Origin: Clostridia bacterium | GTDB taxonomy: Bacteria > Bacillota > Clostridia > Oscillospirales > Acutalibacteraceae | DNA: 50,879 nucleotides | Assembly: GCA_017467405.1 (NCBI GenBank) | Contig: JAFTSH010000006.1 | Span: 1-50,879, forward strand | Direction: 5' to 3' | Part shown: in pieces, positions 3,967 to 44,316 of the stretch | How the letters are laid out: each line of letters begins with the position of its first letter | How positions within the stretch are numbered: position 1 is the stretch's first letter | Position numbers and translations under genes: made by a program | The notes under the pieces: model-generated | The model's input: only the letters and a program-made list of their open reading frames with translations | The model's database searches: none | Told to the model about the DNA's origin: nothing

Positions 3967-4102
3967 TCTTTGCCTTCTCCTAAACAAGTATTTGTAGATC
4001 AATTATATTGATTCTTGACAAATACTAGAACGGTTATTCAGGCAAACTCCTATAAGAATTTGGGTGTTATAAGGAGCCCATCTCCTTCTTGAAAACTAAA
4101 AC

Positions 4103-4130
4103 AAAAAATCCAATCACCAAGGATCGGATT
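4103..4130 (-). terminator. Intrinsic terminator in the leader ahead of the antitoxin gene
   Basis: On the minus strand the arms at 4130-4122 and 4115-4107 form a 9-bp stem (one G-U pair) with a 6-nt loop, followed directly by a run of U. It lies between a strong promoter (4213-4241) and the antitoxin start at 3966, so transcripts would stop before the operon unless they read through. Confidence 0.65.
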
Positions 4131-4206
4131 GAATACATCTAATCTTCCCTCGGTGGGATATTGTGCCAAAGCCCCCACTGTCTACGGTACTTATATAAAG
4201 TTTAGT
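4103..4206 (-). ncRNA. Candidate small RNA or attenuated leader upstream of the antitoxin-toxin pair
   Basis: A consensus minus-strand promoter at 4213-4241 and the terminator at 4103-4130 define a transcript of roughly 100 nt. It carries no ORF with a ribosome binding site. Internal pairing is visible (GTGGG near 4179 with CCCAC near 4155 on the minus strand). It could be an independent small RNA, an RNA partner of the toxin module, or a regulatory leader. I do not recognise the family. Confidence 0.35.
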
Positions 4207-17369: not shown

Positions 17370-19541
17370 TTATTTTACCTTTACCGAAAGAGTATTGTCG
17401 TTATATTTGTTCTTTCTGAAAAGCAGGTATACCATACCGAGAAGAAGAACGAAGGCAACGACCGTCCAGGCCGAGAACACTCCGGTGAAGAGCAGACCGA
17501 TGTGGTAGACCATCAGGGAGATGACGTAGGCGAATACGCACATATATCCGATTGCAAAGGCGGTCCACTTGCCGTTGTTCATTTCGCGTCTGATGGCACC
17601 CATAGCGGCAAAGCAGGGAGCGCAGAGCAGGTTGAAGATCAGGAAGCTGAAGCCTGCAAGCTTGCTGCCGCCGAAGAATTCGCTTCCGATAATCGCAAGA
17701 CCTGCGGAATCAGCCGCGTCAACGAGCTCGAATGCGAGATCGGCATCCGCCATGGAGGAAAGGGAGCCGAACACTCCGACGACCTCTTCCTTGGCAACGA
17801 GTCCGAGTACGGTCGCAACGGCAGCCTGCCAGTTACCGAAGCCGAGGGGCTTGAAGATAACGGCGATAACGGATCCGACGACCTCGAGTATTGAGGCACC
17901 GCCGGCTTCTTCGGTGATGTAGTGGAAGCCGCCCTCAAAGGAGAGGGAGTTGAGCACCCAGATGATCACGCTGGCGGCAACGATAACGGTACCTGCACGC
18001 TTGATGAAGGACCAGCCGCGCTCCCAGGTGGCACGGAGAACGTTACCCGCAACGGGGAGATGATAGGGGGGGAGTTCCATAACGAAGGGAGCGGGATCTC
18101 CTGCGAACATCTTGGTCTTCTTGAGGATGATACCGGTTACCAGAACGGCGGCAACGCCGATGAAGTAAGCGGAGGTGGCGATCCACGCACTGCCGCCGAA
18201 GAGCGCACCGGCGATGAGACCGACGATAGGCATCTTGGCGCCGCAGGGGATAAATCCGGTGGTGATTATGGTCATTTTGCGGTCACGGTCCTGCTCGATG
18301 GTACGGCTGGCCATGATTCCGGGAACGCCGCAACCTGAGGCTACAAGCATCGGGATAAAGCTCTTGCCTGAGAGTCCGAAGCGTCTGAAAATACGGTCCA
18401 TAATAAAGGCGACACGGGCCATGTAACCTACGTTTTCAAGGATGGAAAGCAGCAGGAAGAGAATAAGCATCTGGGGGACGAAGCCGAGAACGGCGCCGAC
18501 ACCGCCGATTATACCGTCAGAGATGAGGCTGTTGAGCCAATCGGCACAGCCGATATTTTCGAGCCATCCCGAAACGCCGGGAAGTATCCACTCTCCGAAG
18601 AGCGTGTCGTTCATAAATCCGACCGTCCAGTCACCGACCGTTCCGATCGAAAGGGTGTATACCAGCCACATGATGGCGGCAAAGATGGGAAGGGCAAGCC
18701 AGCGGTTGGTGATGACGCGGTCGATCTTGTCGGAATAGGTCAGCTTGCCTGCGTCCTTCTTCTTGTACGAGGATTTGAGTATGGAGGCTATGTAGACGTA
18801 TCTCTCGTTGGTGATGATGCTCTCGGCATCGTCATCCATTTCGGCTTCGACGGCAGCGATATCCTCTTCGATGTGAGCGAGGGTAGCTTCGTCGAGTCCG
18901 AGCTGTCCGAGCACCTTTTCGTCGCGCTCGAAGAGCTTGACTGCATACCAGCGCTGCTGTTCGGCGGGCATACCGTGTACGGCGGCTTCCTCAATGTGGG
19001 CAATAGCGTGCTCAACGGTACCCGAGAAGGTATGCTTCGTAACCGCTTTGCCGGCCTTGGCGGCCTCAATGGCAGCCTCGGCAGCCTCGGTGATTCCCGT
19101 TCCCTTGAGTGCCGAGATCTCGACGATCTTACAGCCGAGCTGACGGGAAAGCTCCTCGGTGTTGATCTTGTCGCCGTTCTTTCTGACGACGTCCATCATG
19201 TTGATGGCGGCGACAACGGGGATTCCGAGCTCGGTGAGCTGGGTGGTAAGATAAAGGTTACGCTCAAGGTTCGTGCCGTCGATTATGTTGAGTATAACGT
19301 CGGGGCGCTCGCCTACAAGGTAGTTACGCGCAACGACCTCTTCAAGCGTGTAGGGGGAGAGGGAGTAAATACCCGGAAGGTCGGTGACTATCACGCCGCT
19401 GTGCTTTTTAAGCTTGCCTTCTTTCTTTTCAACCGTTACGCCGGGCCAGTTGCCGACGTATTGGTTAGAGCCCGTAAGGGCGTTGAACAGGGTCGTCTTA
19501 CCGCTGTTCGGGTTGCCTGCAAGGGCAATTCTCAGATCCAT
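17370..19541 (-). CDS. feoB: Ferrous iron transport protein B
   Basis: A 723-residue Fe(II) uptake protein in the cytoplasmic membrane. An N-terminal G domain carries G1 GNPNSGKT (9-16), G3 DLPG (54-57) and G4 NMMD (114-117), followed by a helical GDI-like spacer to about residue 270. Two Gate-type halves of membrane helices follow, with conserved Cys (ASGCGVPG, FIPCGAKMP, LLCAPCFAA). The length is normal. It follows two feoA genes on the same strand after a 109-bp gap containing a third DtxR-like palindrome, so it may have its own control point. No FeoC is seen; the Cys-rich peptide follows instead. Confidence 0.96.
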   Translation of the reverse strand: MDLRIALAGNPNSGKTTLFNALTGSNQYVGNWPGVTVEKKEGKLKKHSGVIVTDLPGIYSLSPYTLEEVVARNYLVGERPDVILNIIDGTNLERNLYLTTQLTELGIPVVAAINMMDVVRKNGDKINTEELSRQLGCKIVEISALKGTGITEAAEAAIEAAKAGKAVTKHTFSGTVEHAIAHIEEAAVHGMPAEQQRWYAVKLFERDEKVLGQLGLDEATLAHIEEDIAAVEAEMDDDAESIITNERYVYIASILKSSYKKKDAGKLTYSDKIDRVITNRWLALPIFAAIMWLVYTLSIGTVGDWTVGFMNDTLFGEWILPGVSGWLENIGCADWLNSLISDGIIGGVGAVLGFVPQMLILFLLLSILENVGYMARVAFIMDRIFRRFGLSGKSFIPMLVASGCGVPGIMASRTIEQDRDRKMTIITTGFIPCGAKMPIVGLIAGALFGGSAWIATSAYFIGVAAVLVTGIILKKTKMFAGDPAPFVMELPPYHLPVAGNVLRATWERGWSFIKRAGTVIVAASVIIWVLNSLSFEGGFHYITEEAGGASILEVVGSVIAVIFKPLGFGNWQAAVATVLGLVAKEEVVGVFGSLSSMADADLAFELVDAADSAGLAIIGSEFFGGSKLAGFSFLIFNLLCAPCFAAMGAIRREMNNGKWTAFAIGYMCVFAYVISLMVYHIGLLFTGVFSAWTVVAFVLLLGMVYLLFRKNKYNDNTLSVKVK

Positions 19542-20766: not shown

Positions 20767-20847
20767 TTTTGTCCTGCGGCCTCTCCGAAATGTTACACAT
20801 TCCCGAAACTGTAATACAATAACGACGGGTGCGTAAGGTTACCGCCC

Positions 20848-20876
20848 TTGAAAAAAAGGCGCGGTTTTAGTAAAAT
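20848..20876 (+). promoter_or_regulatory. Promoter of the oxidoreductase-AcnX operon
   Basis: TTGAAA (20848-20853), a 17-bp spacer and TAAAAT (20871-20876). A second hairpin-like GGGGCGTT repeat lies in the leader (ACGCCCC near 20891 with GGGGCGT near 20911). Confidence 0.65.
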
Positions 20877-20944
20877 ATAATTATGTAAAGAAACGCCCCA
20901 CGTCATCAACGGGGCGTTTATCACAGGAAAGGATGTTTCGAGCT

Positions 20945-23008
20945 ATGCAGAAAACAGACCCGAAGTACGCGCCTCTCTTCACCCCGTGGAAGATCGGCAA
21001 CGTAGAGATCAAAAACCGTATAGTGCTGTGCCCGATGGGCGGTACCTCGCTGTTCGGATGGATGGAGCCCAACCATTTCGATAAGGAGGCGGCAAGGTTC
21101 TTTATCGAAAAGGCCAGGAATAACGTCGGACTCATCATTCCGGGAATAGCACCCATCAAGGATACCATAGGCGGAAGATGGCTGTATAAGAATAAGAAGA
21201 TGTTCAAGGATCTCAAGATCTTTATGGACGAGATACATAAGACGGGAGCCAAGCTCTTCGTGCAGATCACCTCGGGTATGGGACGCTCGTGGGCAATTAC
21301 CGACCACGTTGTATTGCTGCACAACAACCCCGTGCTCCGTACCATCGCAAAGCCGATACTTGACGTCACCTACCAGTCGGCAAGCCCCAGCGAGCTGCCC
21401 TCACGCTGGTCCGACAAGGTCACCTGCCGCGCCATAACCGTCAAGGAGATCGAGGAGATAATCGACGCCTACGCCAAGACGGCTGCCCTTTGTAAGGAGG
21501 CGGGCGTTGACGGAGTCGAGGTGCACGCCGTACACGAGGGCTATCTGCTTGACCAGTTTACGATGGAGTACACCAACAAGCGTACCGACGAATACGGCGG
21601 CTCGTTTGAAAACCGCTACCGTTTCCCCGTTGCCATCGTAAAGGCCATCAAGGAATCCTGCGGCAAGGATTTCCCCGTTTCGCTGAGATATTCGGTCACG
21701 TCAAAGGTAAAGGATTTTTGTGTCGGAGCTTTGCCCGGCGAGGAATATACCGAGATCGGCCGTAACATGGAGGAAAGCGAAAGAGCGGCAAAATATCTTC
21801 AGGATGCAGGCTACGATATGCTCAACGCCGACAACGGAACCTACGACTCGTGGTATTGGGCACATCCGCCTCAGTATATGCCTCAGAACTGCAACCTCGA
21901 GGACGTAGCTCATATCAAGAAGTTTGTCGATATACCCGTCGTATGCGCCGGCCGTATGGAGCCCGACGTAGGAGCAAGAGCGGTCAGTGAGGGACGGATC
22001 GACGCCGTCGGAATCGCCCGACAGTTCCTTGCCGACGGTGAGTGGGTCACCAAGCTTATTGAGGATCGCCTTGAGGACATCCGCCCCTGCATCTGCTGTC
22101 ACAACGCCTGCTTCAATATGACCCACTACAAGGGGGTTGCAAACGATCAGTCGCTGCACGATGCCAGCCATATCGCGCGCTGCGCTCTCAATCCGCAGGT
22201 TATGCAGTCCAAAAAATATAAGCTTCTTCCCGCCAAAAAGGTCAAGGACGTTGCCGTTATCGGCGGCGGAATAGGCGGTATGGAGGCGGCGATAGTCTGT
22301 GCCAAGCGCGGACACAGGGTCACCCTCTACGAAAAAAGCGACCGTCTCGGCGGCGTGTTTATTGCGGCCGCCGCCCCCTCCTACAAGGAAAAGGACCGTA
22401 TGCTCATCTCCTGGTACGAAAGGGAGATCGAAAGATATCCGATCGAGATAAAGCTCAACACCGAGGTCACCGACGTAAAGGCTCTGGGTGCCGACGAGGT
22501 CATCGTGGCAACCGGCTCGGTGGCGAAAAGACTGCCCGTCGCAGGCGCCGAAAAGGCGGTTGAAGCGGTCGAATATCTTCTCGGAGAAAAGAAGGTCGGA
22601 GAAAACGTCGTAATAGTCGGCGGCGGACTCACCGGCTGTGAGATAGCCTACGAGCTTTACCTTCAGGGTAAAAATCCGACGATAGTCGAGATGAAAAACG
22701 ACCTGATCGCCGTCACGGGCGTCTGCCTTGCAAACTCAAGCTACCTGCGCGATTTCTTTGCCGCCAACAAGGTTCCCGTGCATCTTGAAACGAGACTCAG
22801 CGAGGTGCGCGACAACGGCGTTACCGTCACCGATAAGGATGGCAACAGTTTCGACATCGAAGCCGACAGCGTGATCCTGTCGGTCGGATACGATCCCGCT
22901 CCTCTCTGCAAAAGCAAGAGAAACGTCCACGTCGTGGGCGACGCCAAACGCGTCGGCAACCTGCGCACCGTTATCTGGAACGCGTGGGACGTCGCAATGA
23001 AGATATAA
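20945..23008 (+). CDS. Old Yellow Enzyme-type NADH:flavin oxidoreductase with Fe-S and FAD domains
   Basis: A 687-residue protein of the BaiCD/BaiH/enoate reductase/2,4-dienoyl-CoA reductase family, which reduces activated C=C bonds using FMN, a [4Fe-4S] cluster and FAD. The TIM barrel spans about 1-375. The catalytic region reads HAVHEGYL (His194, His197), with the extra Glu seen in BaiCD-like enzymes, followed by the RTDEYGGS box. Cluster cysteines 382, 385, 389 and 413 fit the C-x2-C-x3-C pattern with RCALNP. A Rossmann motif GGGIGG starts near residue 440 and a second dinucleotide motif (VIVGGGLTGCE) lies near 560. ATG at 20945 follows GGAAAGG by 12 nt; ATG at 20933 touches that site. It lies 15 bp before an aconitase-X gene pair, so its substrate is probably an unsaturated acid made or used by that dehydratase. 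Confidence 0.88.
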   Translation: MQKTDPKYAPLFTPWKIGNVEIKNRIVLCPMGGTSLFGWMEPNHFDKEAARFFIEKARNNVGLIIPGIAPIKDTIGGRWLYKNKKMFKDLKIFMDEIHKTGAKLFVQITSGMGRSWAITDHVVLLHNNPVLRTIAKPILDVTYQSASPSELPSRWSDKVTCRAITVKEIEEIIDAYAKTAALCKEAGVDGVEVHAVHEGYLLDQFTMEYTNKRTDEYGGSFENRYRFPVAIVKAIKESCGKDFPVSLRYSVTSKVKDFCVGALPGEEYTEIGRNMEESERAAKYLQDAGYDMLNADNGTYDSWYWAHPPQYMPQNCNLEDVAHIKKFVDIPVVCAGRMEPDVGARAVSEGRIDAVGIARQFLADGEWVTKLIEDRLEDIRPCICCHNACFNMTHYKGVANDQSLHDASHIARCALNPQVMQSKKYKLLPAKKVKDVAVIGGGIGGMEAAIVCAKRGHRVTLYEKSDRLGGVFIAAAAPSYKEKDRMLISWYEREIERYPIEIKLNTEVTDVKALGADEVIVATGSVAKRLPVAGAEKAVEAVEYLLGEKKVGENVVIVGGGLTGCEIAYELYLQGKNPTIVEMKNDLIAVTGVCLANSSYLRDFFAANKVPVHLETRLSEVRDNGVTVTDKDGNSFDIEADSVILSVGYDPAPLCKSKRNVHVVGDAKRVGNLRTVIWNAWDVAMKI

Positions 23009-23023
23009 CGAAAGGGAGATAGT

Positions 23024-24304
23024 ATGCAGCTCACCGAACAACAGCAGGAAATACTTAACGGCTCAAGAGGCGAAACGGTGGCAAAGGCTATGAAGGCGCT
23101 CGTCATGTACGGCGACGTCTTCGGTGCCGACAAAATGGTTCCCGTAACCTCGGAATTCAACCACCTCGTCACCTCCTTCGGCCTCGGAGTAATATCACCC
23201 GTCTACGATCTTATGGATAAGCTGATCGAGGCAGGCGCGGTTTCGGGACAAAAGTTCTCGGCCGACCCTCGTCCCCTCGATCCCAACGTTCCCGCCAATC
23301 TGCTTCAGAAGCTTATCTTCAAAAAATTTATGTATAATAAGCAGGACTTCTACGAGAAGCAGCTTGATACCCTCGGACTTATGGATAAGGACGCTTTCAC
23401 CTGCGCCTGCTATATGGACGAGGTAGGCAATAAGCCGAAAAAGGGCGACGTGCTCAGCTGGTCCGAATCCTCGGCCGTCGTCTATGCAAACTCGGTGCTG
23501 GGTGCCCGTTGTAACCGTAATTCGGGCATCATGGATCTGATGGGCTCGGTCGTCGGTCTTGTTCCCCATTTCGGACTTCTTACCGACGAGGGACGAAAGG
23601 CCGGATGGATAGTCAGGGTCGAAACCGAAACCAAGCCCGAAGCACAGCTTCTCGGCTCGGCCATCGGTATGAAGGTGATGGAGGATGTTCCCTACATCAT
23701 CGGACTTGATAAGTGGCTCGGAGACGAGCTTGACGATTCGGCCTGCACCTACCTCAAGGACTTTGGTGCCGCCACCGCCTCAAACGGAGCCGTCGGACTC
23801 TATCACGTCGAAAATCTCACCCCCGAGGCAAAGGAGCAGGGAAGAGAGCTCATCCTCGACGGTGCACAGGTCTACGTGATCGACGATGCAGAACTCAAGC
23901 GCGTCAAGGACAGCTATCCCGTAGTCTGGAAAAACCCCGATGCAAAACCCAGGCTTTGCTTTATGGGTTGTCCTCATATGAGCCTCAGACAGCTTACCGA
24001 CTGGACCGAAAAGGTTGAAGCAGCCCTCAGGGAGGCAGGAAACAAGAAGGTAGTAATCCCCACCGTGTTTACCGCGGCACCTGCCGTGCTCAGGGAATTT
24101 GAAGCCACGGAGTACGCCGAAAGGCTCAAAAAGACGGGAGTCATAACCTCCTATATCTGCCCGCTTATGTATATGAACAATCCGCTGTGCGCCAAGATGC
24201 CGGTAATCACCTCGTCAAATAAGCTGCGTACCTATACCACCGCAAAATACTATACCGACGAGGAGATACTCGTTCAGATCACCAAAGGAGGGGACGAAGC
24301 ATGA
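23024..24304 (+). CDS. Aconitase X large (catalytic) subunit
   Basis: A 426-residue protein of the AcnX family (formerly DUF521), the large subunit of a small Fe-S hydro-lyase. The family features are visible: the N-terminal LTEQQQEILNG start, the YGDVFGADKMVPVTSEFNH block, the NSVLGARCNRN block, and late Cys-containing FMGCPH. Known members include cis-3-hydroxy-L-proline dehydratase and archaeal mevalonate-5-phosphate dehydratase. The stop overlaps the start of the small subunit by 4 bp. No proline racemase or pyrroline-2-carboxylate reductase is adjacent, unlike the hydroxyproline loci. The family is firm and the substrate unknown. Confidence 0.88.
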   Translation: MQLTEQQQEILNGSRGETVAKAMKALVMYGDVFGADKMVPVTSEFNHLVTSFGLGVISPVYDLMDKLIEAGAVSGQKFSADPRPLDPNVPANLLQKLIFKKFMYNKQDFYEKQLDTLGLMDKDAFTCACYMDEVGNKPKKGDVLSWSESSAVVYANSVLGARCNRNSGIMDLMGSVVGLVPHFGLLTDEGRKAGWIVRVETETKPEAQLLGSAIGMKVMEDVPYIIGLDKWLGDELDDSACTYLKDFGAATASNGAVGLYHVENLTPEAKEQGRELILDGAQVYVIDDAELKRVKDSYPVVWKNPDAKPRLCFMGCPHMSLRQLTDWTEKVEAALREAGNKKVVIPTVFTAAPAVLREFEATEYAERLKKTGVITSYICPLMYMNNPLCAKMPVITSSNKLRTYTTAKYYTDEEILVQITKGGDEA

Positions 24305-24744
24305 AGACCTTCAAAGGACGCGTTGTAGCCCCCGGCAGTGTAAAGGCCGAGGCGGTAGTCACCCACGGCGGCTTCAATACCCTCGCATCTCTGCAGAAAT
24401 CGTTGCAGTTCGGCGACAAGACCGCCAAGTGCGGCGACCAGAACAATCCCGAGCTTTACGGCAAGCCCCTCGCAGGCCGTGCGCTCTGCCTGCCGCAGAC
24501 CATCGGCTCCACCACGGGCGGACTCGTTATCTACTGCGCCTGTGCCATGAAGCGAAATCCTGCCTGCCTGCTTTTCTCCAATAAGATCGACTCCCTCGCC
24601 GCCGCAGGCTCGATACTTGCCGACGTGTGGCTTGACGACGTTTCGATGCCGGTTGTAGACTCACTCGGTGACGAATTCCTCTCGTACGTCAAGGACGGAA
24701 TGACGGTGACGGTACGGGAGGACGGAACCGTAACCGTCGAATAA
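24301..24744 (+). CDS. Aconitase X small (swivel, DUF126) subunit
   Basis: A 147-residue protein of the AcnX small-subunit family. It has the FKGRVVAPGSVKAEAVV start, the QTIGSTTGG segment equivalent to the Ser-rich active-site loop of the swivel domain, and the LADVWLDDVSMPVVD end. It is translationally coupled to the large subunit by an ATGA overlap. Together they would form the dehydratase. Confidence 0.9.
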   Translation: MKTFKGRVVAPGSVKAEAVVTHGGFNTLASLQKSLQFGDKTAKCGDQNNPELYGKPLAGRALCLPQTIGSTTGGLVIYCACAMKRNPACLLFSNKIDSLAAAGSILADVWLDDVSMPVVDSLGDEFLSYVKDGMTVTVREDGTVTVE

Positions 24745-24840: not shown

Positions 24841-24889
24841 CTTCGTTTCGGCTTTGGTACTTGCCAAAACGAAGATTTTGGTATATACT
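24841..24889 (+). promoter_or_regulatory. TetR gene promoter with overlapping inverted repeat
   Basis: TTGCCA (24861-24866), a 17-bp spacer and TATACT (24884-24889) form a promoter. The arms CTTCGTTT (24841-24848) and AAACGAAG (24867-24874) enclose a nested TTTGG/CCAAA pair (24853-24868), so the -35 box lies in a palindrome. It is a likely autoregulatory operator and might also affect the upstream operon. Confidence 0.55.
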
Positions 24890-24921: not shown

Positions 24922-25497
24922 ATGTCAAAACTGACTAAAAAGGCTATCGTTGCGTCCTTTGTAAGCCTTGTTTCCAAGAAGCCTCTTGACAAGGTCACGG
25001 TAAAGGATATAGTCGAGGACTGCGGCATCACACGAAATACCTTCTACTACTATTTCAGCGATATTTACGATATAGTCGACGAGCTTCTCAGCGGTCTCGG
25101 AGAAGAATACGATATAACCCATACGGGCGGTTGGGAAAAGGGCTTCAGAAAGACTATGCAGTTTGCACTCGACAACCGACGCGCGGTCTATAATATGTAC
25201 AATTCATCACGCAAGAACGAGCTGATGGTCTGTATAAATAACGCCATGACGCGGCTGATAGAACGGCTTATCGACGAAAATCCGGACAGTAAGGGGCTTT
25301 CAAAAAAGGATAAAAAGCTGATCGTGGTGTTTTACAGAGGCGCGGTAGTCGCATACATAGTCGAATGGCTCGATACGGGAATGAAGGATTCGGCCGACGA
25401 GATGATCGACAGAGTGCTCTTCCTGTTTGAGGGAAGCATGGACGAAGCGGTAAAGCGTGCGGCAAACGACCCTCGGTGCATGAACAAACGGACGTAG
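24922..25497 (+). CDS. TetR/AcrR-family transcriptional regulator
   Basis: A 191-residue regulator. An N-terminal helix-turn-helix (about 8-52, with VTVKDIVEDCGITRNTFYYYF) is followed by a helical effector domain of the type with the FYRGAVVAYIVEWLDTG segment (about 130-150), typical of the DhaS/TetR_C_8 group in Firmicutes. AGGAGG precedes the ATG. A palindrome sits over its promoter. Its targets are probably itself and perhaps a neighbour; the ligand is unknown. Confidence 0.88.
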   Translation: MSKLTKKAIVASFVSLVSKKPLDKVTVKDIVEDCGITRNTFYYYFSDIYDIVDELLSGLGEEYDITHTGGWEKGFRKTMQFALDNRRAVYNMYNSSRKNELMVCINNAMTRLIERLIDENPDSKGLSKKDKKLIVVFYRGAVVAYIVEWLDTGMKDSADEMIDRVLFLFEGSMDEAVKRAANDPRCMNKRT

Positions 25498-25602
25498 GTG
25501 TCACGGTTTTGCGCAAATTGCGGTGAGTGTATGTATTCACCCGCACCGTTAAATGATATAATCACATCGAAATGTGCAGTAGTCACGGACTGGAGTTAAA
25601 AT

Positions 25603-26196
25603 ATGAAAACCATCAAGCTTGCAAAGATACTTTATATAATCTGCTCGGTACTGCTCTGCGGTATCGGTCTGCTTCTGATAATCGATCCCGTTGTGTCGTC
25701 CGACCTGATATTTATTCTTATCGGATGTATTCTGATCGTATTCGGCGGCAGTAAGATCGTCGGATATTTCTCCTACGATATGTACCACCTCGCCTTCCAG
25801 TTCGACCTCGCGCTGGGCATCTTCGTCACGGCACTCGGAATTGCCTTTATCATCCGTCCCTCGGTGCTCATAGACGCCGCGGCACTTGCACTCGGACTCT
25901 ACGTCTTTATCGACGGCGCCTTCAAGATCCAGACGGCGGCCGACGCACAGCGCTTCGGTATGAGCCAGTGGTGGATAATCCTTCTCGGAGCGATTTTCTG
26001 CATCAGCCTCGGCGTAACGCTGATCTTCAACCCCTTCGGAATAGGTGCTATGATGCTTCGCTTCGTCGGAATCGGCCTTCTGACCGACGGTGCACAGAAT
26101 CTTTTCAACGCCTTCTATACGGTGCGTACCATCAACCGCCGCAATCAGGAGCTCGATCGGATCCCCGACCGCGACGAGCTTGAAGGAAAGCGCTGA
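25603..26196 (+). CDS. DUF308 (HdeD-like) membrane protein
   Basis: A 197-residue membrane protein with six hydrophobic segments arranged as three pairs, in each of which a helix is followed by a Pro/Gly turn (GLLLIIDPVV, GIAFIIRPSV, GVTLIFNPFG). This triple pseudo-repeat is typical of the HdeD/DUF308 family, linked in enterobacteria with acid resistance but otherwise of unknown function. GGAG lies 8 nt upstream of the ATG. The 105-bp gap to the TetR gene has a GGTGA/TCACC hairpin and a possible TATAAT at 25556. Confidence 0.82.
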   Translation: MKTIKLAKILYIICSVLLCGIGLLLIIDPVVSSDLIFILIGCILIVFGGSKIVGYFSYDMYHLAFQFDLALGIFVTALGIAFIIRPSVLIDAAALALGLYVFIDGAFKIQTAADAQRFGMSQWWIILLGAIFCISLGVTLIFNPFGIGAMMLRFVGIGLLTDGAQNLFNAFYTVRTINRRNQELDRIPDRDELEGKR

Positions 26197-44116: not shown

Positions 44117-44281
44117 ATGAAATCCTTGCTGTAGCAAGGATGAAATCAGCTAACGCTGATGAAATCTTCGGCTTTGCCTCAGATGAAATTAAATCCACCC
44201 TTCCGCCGTCGAGGCGGATTTCATCCAGCGATGCTGGATTTCATAACAAAGTGATTTCACCCACCCGCAAGGGTGGATTTA
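44117..44281. repeat. Hairpin array with GATGAAATC spacer word
   Basis: Short palindromes of 12-18 bp are separated by a constant word. GATGAAATC occurs at 44139-44147 and 44158-44166, with close variants at 44117 and 44182, between hairpins such as CTTGCTGTAGCAAG. From about 44215 the word appears in the reverse sense (GATTTCATC) twice and then degrades. The array itself is thus folded head to head. An open frame runs through it but is formed by the repeats. No gene is called. Confidence 0.75.
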
Positions 44282-44284
44282 GTT

Positions 44285-44316
44285 AAAAAAGCACTTGCTT
44301 TCGCAAGTGCTTTTTT
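44285..44316 (-). terminator. Terminator after tRNA-Gln
   Basis: AAAAAAGCACTTGC (44285-44298) pairs with GCAAGTGCTTTTTT (44303-44316), directly downstream of the tRNA on the minus strand. Confidence 0.9.

Follow-up and report, generated by a model that had tools for sequence, protein, structure and literature searches.

A candidate coenzyme A-independent dehydration-reduction cassette, OYE-AcnX-AcnX, in gut and sediment bacteria

The locus and its conserved residues

The window examined here is a 50,879-nucleotide stretch from an assembly labelled Clostridia bacterium (Acutalibacteraceae; GCA_017467405.1, contig JAFTSH010000006.1), in which a gene for an Old Yellow Enzyme (OYE)-type flavoenzyme precedes the genes for the large and small subunits of aconitase X (AcnX) (Table 1). 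The initial annotation placed an OYE/Fe-S/flavin adenine dinucleotide (FAD) gene 15 bp upstream of two overlapping AcnX genes, and both coordinates and Pfam matches agree with it: the spacing is 15 bp, the AcnX genes overlap by 4 bp, the first product matches Oxidored_FMN (1.8e-59) and Pyr_redox_2, and the other two exceed the gathering thresholds of PF04412 (298.8 bits against 31.5) and PF01989 (42.8 bits against 27), which places them in the AcnX family. A further in-frame ATG lies at 20933 (open reading frame 20933-23008), the ATG at 20945 giving the 687-residue product. No plus-strand promoter-like site was found by consensus scan within the OYE or AcnX large-subunit genes. The source assembly is fragmentary (1.05 Mb, 55.9% complete) and has one AcnX above the family cut-off. 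Compared with the congener G002 (G numbers denote genomes of relatives and L numbers fetched loci), the three genes have dN/dS values of 0.05-0.09, rough figures because dS is near saturation, that indicate purifying selection.

Table 1. Features of the operon and its surroundings in the window
Feature	Position	Strand	Basis
OYE gene, 687 residues, FAD/NAD domain and Fe-S Cys motif, putative enoate reductase	20945..23008	+	PF00724 and PF07992
AcnX large subunit, 426 residues, putative 3-hydroxy acid dehydratase	23024..24304	+	PF04412, 6.9e-89
AcnX small (swivel) subunit, 147 residues	24301..24744	+	PF01989, 4.7e-11
Candidate operon promoter, TTGAAA-17-TAAAAT	20848..20876	+	Consensus scan, 10/12; consensus match alone
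Second upstream promoter-like site	20792-20820	+	Consensus scan, 9/12
Hairpin in 5' leader, 9-bp stem, AAACGCCCC...GGGGCGTTT	20891..20919	+	Sequence reading and folding
Promoter-like site inside AcnX small-subunit gene	24632-24661		9/12; consensus match only
Promoter-like site of TetR gene	24861-24889
TetR-family regulator 3' of operon	24922..25497	+	PF14278/PF00440
TetR gene followed by HdeD/DUF308 gene (pair)	24922-26196
feoB, 1.4 kb before operon	17370-19541	-
Gut-1 RNA beside tRNA-Gln	44213-44285		Rfam
Ribosomal protein L10 leader	4093-4205		Rfam

The OYE has the features of FadH-type enzymes, namely Oxidored_FMN, Pyr_redox_2 and a CxxCxxxC...C cysteine motif (whose second cysteine is Asp in L146, L153, L154 and L158), and it shares its domain order with its best profile and sequence matches, BaiCD, FadH, the bilirubin reductase BilR and an entry 'NCR' that we take to be 2-naphthoyl-CoA reductase (CoA, coenzyme A). 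Its earlier assignment to the BaiCD type is not borne out, since it falls below the curated NCBIfam cut-offs for both BaiCD (357 of 825 bits) and the long bilirubin reductase (356 of 750 bits). Unlike these enzymes it is coupled to AcnX and carries two distinctive motifs, HxxHEGY (194-200) and GxYDxWxxxHPP (298-309), of which H194, H197, E198, G199 and Y200, and G298, Y300, D301, W303, H307 and the two prolines, are invariant in 20 AcnX-paired OYEs that are 28-82% identical to that of the window. None of the seven further full-length OYEs analysed (L188-L193, L195) has GxYDxWxxxHPP, which does occur in L186, from genome G042, and in L194. In a tree computed without FadH, BaiCD and the like, the paired OYEs, L186 and L194 form a 22-row group with 100/100 support, apart from the seven other OYEs of the relatives.

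The AcnX belongs to type II, with separate subunits, a conserved Glu and cysteines matching the ligands Cys110, Cys283 and Cys342 of the T. kodakarensis (Tk) enzyme; Tk Cys342 lies outside the printed Tk alignment, and C379 was assigned through its A. tumefaciens counterpart. C127, C316, C379, E148, K400 and Y404 are invariant in a 21-row alignment, the roles of the Fe-S ligands, Glu and Lys/Tyr being taken from PMC8184944. In the small subunit, S70-T71-T72 lies within GSTTG at a position that PMC8184944 gives as Ser62-Thr63-Val64 in T. kodakarensis and Ser70-Cys71-Thr72 in A. tumefaciens.

Alignment at the substrate-contact residues, which the initial annotation had proposed as a check, shows that most landmarks for both cis-3-hydroxyproline and mevalonate phosphate are lost. 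The closest solved structure by sequence is the type IIb phosphomevalonate dehydratase of T. kodakarensis (7cnr, 1.8e-46). Like this enzyme (7CNR/7CNS) and that of A. pernix, the window AcnX is a predicted heterodimer with three homologous Cys ligands, in which Glu, Lys, Tyr, the catalytic Ser and an equivalent of Leu27 (Leu28) are kept; unlike them it has Thr72 in place of Val64 and an adjacent OYE, the phosphate-contact Asn79 (counterpart of Asn233) is replaced by Asp81 in 20 of the 21 rows, and no Asn was found at the second phosphate-contact site, Asn53, in the placements considered. With the A. tumefaciens AcnX (7CNP/7CNQ) it shares a large-subunit sequence relation, Ser70, Thr72, Glu, Lys and Tyr, whereas it lacks a hydroxyproline gene cluster, and of the cis-3-hydroxy-L-proline (C3LHyp) landmarks Trp35, Thr72 and Asp203 (A. 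tumefaciens numbering) Thr72 alone is kept. Trp35 is replaced by Leu28, and the Asp203/Ala47 site is not acidic in any alignment tried, the pairing of the Asp203/Ile206 loop being ambiguous by 1-2 residues and the profile alignments to the two structures differing. The C3LHyp dehydratase model reaches 137 of 700 bits. Given these losses, neither known AcnX substrate fits well.

In a 63-row tree of the large subunit, built from part of all loci and rooted at the midpoint, the window AcnX falls in a 33-row clade (support 100/100, stem 1.21) that excludes L168/L169 and lies apart from the hydroxyproline-cluster AcnX of Paracoccus and Sinorhizobium; this outcome favours the initial annotation, which a grouping with hydroxyproline dehydratases would have counted against. 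PMC8184944 states that the residues marking either known substrate are all missing from types IIc-IIf; the window clade resembles these types in missing most landmarks.

Linkage, co-occurrence and exchange

Many gut and sediment bacteria carry the three-gene cassette. A scan with the large subunit, at one genome per species, gave at least 569 relatives, of which the closest 80 were analysed; the sample is biased to these, and the genomes are patchy. The OYE-AcnX adjacency, whose restriction to this genome would have refuted the initial annotation, recurs widely: a same-strand OYE adjoins AcnX in 73 of the 80 closest loci, upstream in 69 and downstream in four (L044, L063, L077, L083), with a gap of at most 100 bp in 60 loci and of 722 bp at the largest. 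Of the seven loci in which no OYE is linked, three (L020, L055, L084) extend for at least 8 kb both ways. In L031 AcnX is preceded by 685 bp, most of it occupied by another open reading frame (ORF), and followed by 3.1 kb; the sequence ahead of AcnX measures only 224 bp in L092 and 250 bp in L095, and L072 stops 67 bp past AcnX. Mechanical clustering of ORFs across the 80 loci yielded no conserved third gene; the next commonest clusters were, in 13 loci, an ORF antisense to the small-subunit gene and, in 10, an ABC ATPase. The same-strand neighbours (70 genes) were assessed by eye. As gene order varies and the surroundings differ, the trio travels as a unit.

The association extends to genomes in which the genes are apart. 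In G005, G054 and G017 AcnX has no OYE neighbour, and an OYE 74, 77 and 60% identical to that of the window lies elsewhere. Judging from position and length, L055 is apparently the contig of G005. Among 59 relatives, with the window genome excluded, 11 have both, one AcnX only, three OYE only and 44 neither (Fisher p = 1.5e-8, uncorrected for phylogeny); the counts were compiled by hand, and an OYE was counted if motif-bearing or a fragment more than 70% identical. The AcnX-only genome is G050 (a fragment at a contig end) and the OYE-only genomes are G042 and, as fragments, G028 and G056. The OYE of G042 (L186/L196) sits beside a gene that reads as a glycosidase. A further 17 clade members with context include 13 with an OYE; none lies in the stretches of L125, L152, L161 and L164, of which L164 is a 4.5-kb contig and L152 and L161 come from G054 and G017, already noted to have an OYE elsewhere. 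For 30 AcnX loci outside the clade no neighbour was judged a real OYE, the matches being 39 bits at 269 bp (L175), 49 bits at 3 kb (L136) and 498 bits at 2.5 kb (L170).

Between Sedimentibacter and the window AcnX is 77% and OYE 30% identical, and the Sedimentibacter OYE is still in the motif-bearing group. The AcnX and OYE trees disagree in places, so that in these rows the OYE has been exchanged for another of the same group.

Named carriers are Mediterraneibacter glycyrrhizinilyticus, M. agrestimuris DSM 111629 and Sedimentibacter saalensis DSM 13558. All 48 records of ruminant-tract metagenome-assembled genomes (RGIG titles) among the closest 80 are named for cecum, colon or rectum and none for the rumen, a distribution in which lineage bias is possible. 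A search of plasmids gave 160 records, all below 60% identity; the best, at 48%, is a same-clade AcnX pair on plasmid pRoPD630_1 of Rhodococcus opacus PD630 (L125 14962-16730), beside a LysR gene. Nearby genes encode an MHS-like MFS transporter (424 of 443 bits) and an SDR, and others are annotated as acting in the breakdown of aromatics. The phage search gave a single record, MT837347 ("Bacteriophage sp.", UNVERIFIED, human faeces; L127 366-4200), which has a complete OYE-AcnX trio and which we suspect to be bacterial DNA in a virus preparation.

A promoter palindrome in some relatives

A scan for Rex sites turned up a MarR-type palindrome instead, GTTGAN4TCAAC, which lies 5' of OYE, or of a marR gene ahead of OYE, in 18 of the 80 loci (L017, L018, L023, L028, L033, L038, L042, L053, L056, L058, L062, L066, L067, L073, L076, L082, L086 and L087). 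Several of these carry it as AGATGTTGACNNNTCAACATCT, often enclosing a -35-like TTGACA. It occurs in 12 of 80 stretches upstream of OYE, against none in mid-gene controls and 0.03 in shuffles, and the 1.31 Mb of the 80 loci hold 23 sites in all (15 at OYE promoters, five at marR, three elsewhere) where Markov models predict 1-3 over five runs. The five marR sites lie before or at the start of marR in MarR-OYE or MarR-DegV-OYE operons (L062, L073, L076); L050 and L052 have a MarR gene ahead of OYE yet no palindrome. We infer that MarR binds the palindrome, and the operon is probably inducible through MarR in some relatives. The BilQ-BilR system likewise has a MarR regulator beside an OYE, and the MarR encoded directly before OYE in some relatives is weakly BilQ-like (44 of 125 bits); the parallel is one of layout only, and unlike BilR the OYE here is coupled to AcnX.

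The long form of the palindrome, TTGTTGAN4TCAACAA, occurs 23 times in 16 of 20 genomes, the other four having none. These genomes were picked for having the site or MarR, so that among the 21 promoters into which the sites group the eight cassette promoters were expected and the other 13 are new information. Seven belong to MarR and/or DegV genes, one of them with an acyl-acyl carrier protein (ACP) thioesterase and one with an aldehyde dehydrogenase; the remainder comprise two AMP-binding ligases, one alcohol/aldehyde dehydrogenase pair, two XRE regulators and one unclear case. For some DegV genes, one ligase and one XRE gene the assignment was made by eye or from BLAST alone. Proteins of the DegV family bind fatty acids, and the DegV of L238 scores 141 of 350 bits against FakB1. 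Because the other putative targets of MarR handle fatty acids, a hydrophobic 3-hydroxy acid is our leading guess for the substrate of the cassette; the chief evidence for the class of substrate is this regulon, which points towards fatty-acid-like acids and was found in relatives of the window genome, not in the window. Among the literature titles listed we found no description of this small palindrome regulon of gut Bacillota, and records listed for MarR/DegV and hydroxy fatty acids gave no match to the OYE-AcnX system.

Several other features of the loci may be recorded here. The TetR gene downstream of the operon is a candidate member of the system; tblastn found it only at the window's own locus among the loci compared for the adjacency. 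A pair of genes resembling this TetR gene and the HdeD/DUF308 gene after it on visual inspection is found close to the OYE that stands apart from AcnX in G017 (L202 10255-11673). FeoA-FeoB-like genes, also recognised by eye, lie immediately 5' of OYE-AcnX-AcnX in G010 (L165 2209-8994). The leader hairpin was not seen in the other leaders folded alongside. Rfam scans of the window, seven of the 80 loci and L166 placed no riboswitch at the cassette; in L023 a fluoride riboswitch lies 4.6 kb 5' of OYE.

Proposed function and its alternatives

The evidence in hand consists of gene linkage, co-occurrence, clade separation, residue conservation and a common promoter palindrome. Known type II AcnX enzymes are dehydratases of a free 3-hydroxy acid, and activated carbon-carbon double bonds are reduced by enzymes of the OYE/Fe-S/FAD kind. 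The simplest interpretation, and the one that we favour with somewhat better than even confidence, is that of OYE-AcnX-AcnX as a stand-alone, CoA-independent module that would dehydrate and then reduce a free 3-hydroxy acid. An AcnX heterodimer carrying an Fe-S cluster like that of type II would dehydrate a free 3-hydroxycarboxylic acid: Ser of the small subunit would take up the C2 proton, and the cluster, Glu148 and Lys400 would take the 3-hydroxyl. The OYE would reduce the resulting 2-enoate to the saturated acid, with electrons passing from NAD(P)H through FAD and the Fe-S cluster to flavin mononucleotide. The net effect would be loss of the beta-hydroxyl and consumption of two electrons.

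The initial annotation had likewise proposed a dehydratase followed by a reductase. Its functional coupling is supported by the adjacency in most loci, the exchange only among motif-bearing OYEs, the co-occurrence when unlinked and the separation from hydroxyproline-cluster AcnX, while the catalysis, the order and direction of the steps and the substrate are what we infer. A number of observations weigh against the favoured interpretation. Adjacency alone is no proof of sequential action, and each part can evidently stand alone, as G042 (98% complete) has a motif-bearing OYE and no AcnX match, and the Rhodococcus opacus AcnX pair has no OYE within the 31 kb fetched. The row L146 has Asn instead of Asp81. 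As for regulation, the window lacks the palindrome, as do the cassette promoters of 62 of the 80 loci, and its regulon takes in the XRE promoters and the one for which no product was recognised. Nor does the distribution of MarR follow that of the cassette: a close homologue was found in only one of 12 AcnX-bearing relatives (G057, 51%), where it lies directly 5' of OYE, that of G002 being distant (30%); no homologue was found at E 1e-8 in the window genome (56% complete), and among 60 genomes searched G012 and G047 have MarR (52%) without AcnX.

Among alternative accounts, one that we consider doubtful is that AcnX works in reverse, hydrating an unsaturated acid which OYE reduces independently, the two enzymes acting side by side in detoxification with a regulator in common. 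Control by MarR is characteristic of detoxification genes. Aconitase-type reactions are reversible, and the hydration direction has been assayed according to PMC10040528; however, co-inheritance, together with OYE exchange confined to a single motif group, suggests an intermediate common to both enzymes, which leaves the direction unfixed. It is also unlikely that AcnX converts 3-hydroxyproline or another cyclic hydroxy-imino acid to pyrroline-2-carboxylate, with OYE replacing the usual reductase to give proline. Types I and IIa are C3LHyp dehydratases according to PMC8184944 and PMC5144071, Thr72 is kept, L157 has a convergent proline-racemase-family gene (541 bits, cut-off 556) starting about 16 bp past the small-subunit gene, and three sigma-54 regulators lie by deeper-branching members, with PrdR as best match (375-413 bits, cut-off 795). 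This route was followed through L157 and PF05544 and then demoted: besides the loss of Trp35, the non-acidic Asp203 site, the low model score and the separate clade, none of the 60 genomes has a full-length proline racemase family gene (PF05544), weak partial matches being present in 18, four of them above the cut-off and covering about 95-116 of 325 positions. The imino acid option of the initial annotation is weakened accordingly.

A cationic 3-hydroxy acid, such as L-carnitine converted by way of crotonobetaine to gamma-butyrobetaine, was an early favourite after Asp81 and Trp303 were noticed, the former replacing the phosphate-contact Asn and the invariant Trp303 aligning with Trp264 of trimethylamine dehydrogenase (numbered by hand from the alignment), which together with Tyr60 and Trp355 we take to form its aromatic bowl. 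It was demoted, and now seems improbable, as the bowl is not kept, neither the position of Tyr60 nor that of Trp355, one of which lies near an insertion, being aromatic in the alignment, and as the regulon points to fatty acids. Moreover, Arg83 (Arg/Lys in the 21 rows) lies near Asp81 and may neutralise it, no carnitine gene was noticed beside the cassette, though no dedicated search was made, and the literature listed on the carnitine step gave no gene for it. Conversion of citrate to tricarballylate was also considered, and the literature listed gave nothing bearing on it. Least credible of all is a type IIb phosphomevalonate dehydratase that belongs to a mevalonate pathway of modified form, in which case OYE would either use anhydromevalonate or have no connection with it. 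The nearest structure, the three Cys ligands and Leu28 agree with this account, whereas Asp81 and Thr72 do not, and the hosts do not appear to make mevalonate: 3-hydroxy-3-methylglutaryl-CoA (HMG-CoA) synthase (PF08540) was found in none of the 20 cassette genomes searched, of which 16 are 90% complete or better, and 19 have IspG/GcpE of the methylerythritol phosphate pathway (PF04551), the miss being G002 (69% complete). Phosphomevalonate is therefore unlikely, and it was set aside on this host pathway.

Returning to the dehydration-reduction module, we tentatively suggest a fatty-acid-like 3-hydroxy acid, for example a 3-hydroxy fatty acid, as substrate, a class to which the regulon of the relatives leads and which lay outside the options of the initial annotation. 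It is conceivable, and no more probable than that substrate guess, that anaerobic Bacillota strip the 3-hydroxyl from free 3-hydroxy fatty acids with the help of neither CoA nor ACP, the fatty acids being released, for instance, from lipids of Gram-negative bacteria or Bacteroidetes; AcnX would give the 2-enoic acid and OYE the saturated acid, which might enter membrane lipid by a DegV/FakB-like route, with MarR as the switch in some hosts.

No link between AcnX and OYE was found in the titles and abstract openings searched, a search that did not cover full texts, most subscription papers and preprints. PMC10040528 states the functions of types IIc-IIf to be unknown, and the cassette makes this open question testable and points to a job for a branch of AcnX so far without one. 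An obligate-looking redox partner, the palindrome with its small regulon in some relatives and the named strains together bound the search for the substrate. If the proposal is true, a CoA-free route from a 3-hydroxy acid to the saturated acid would be useful for understanding gut metabolism and for biocatalysis; if the substrates are indeed 3-hydroxy fatty acids, it would constitute a new lipid salvage or electron-sink pathway and the first function for this AcnX branch.

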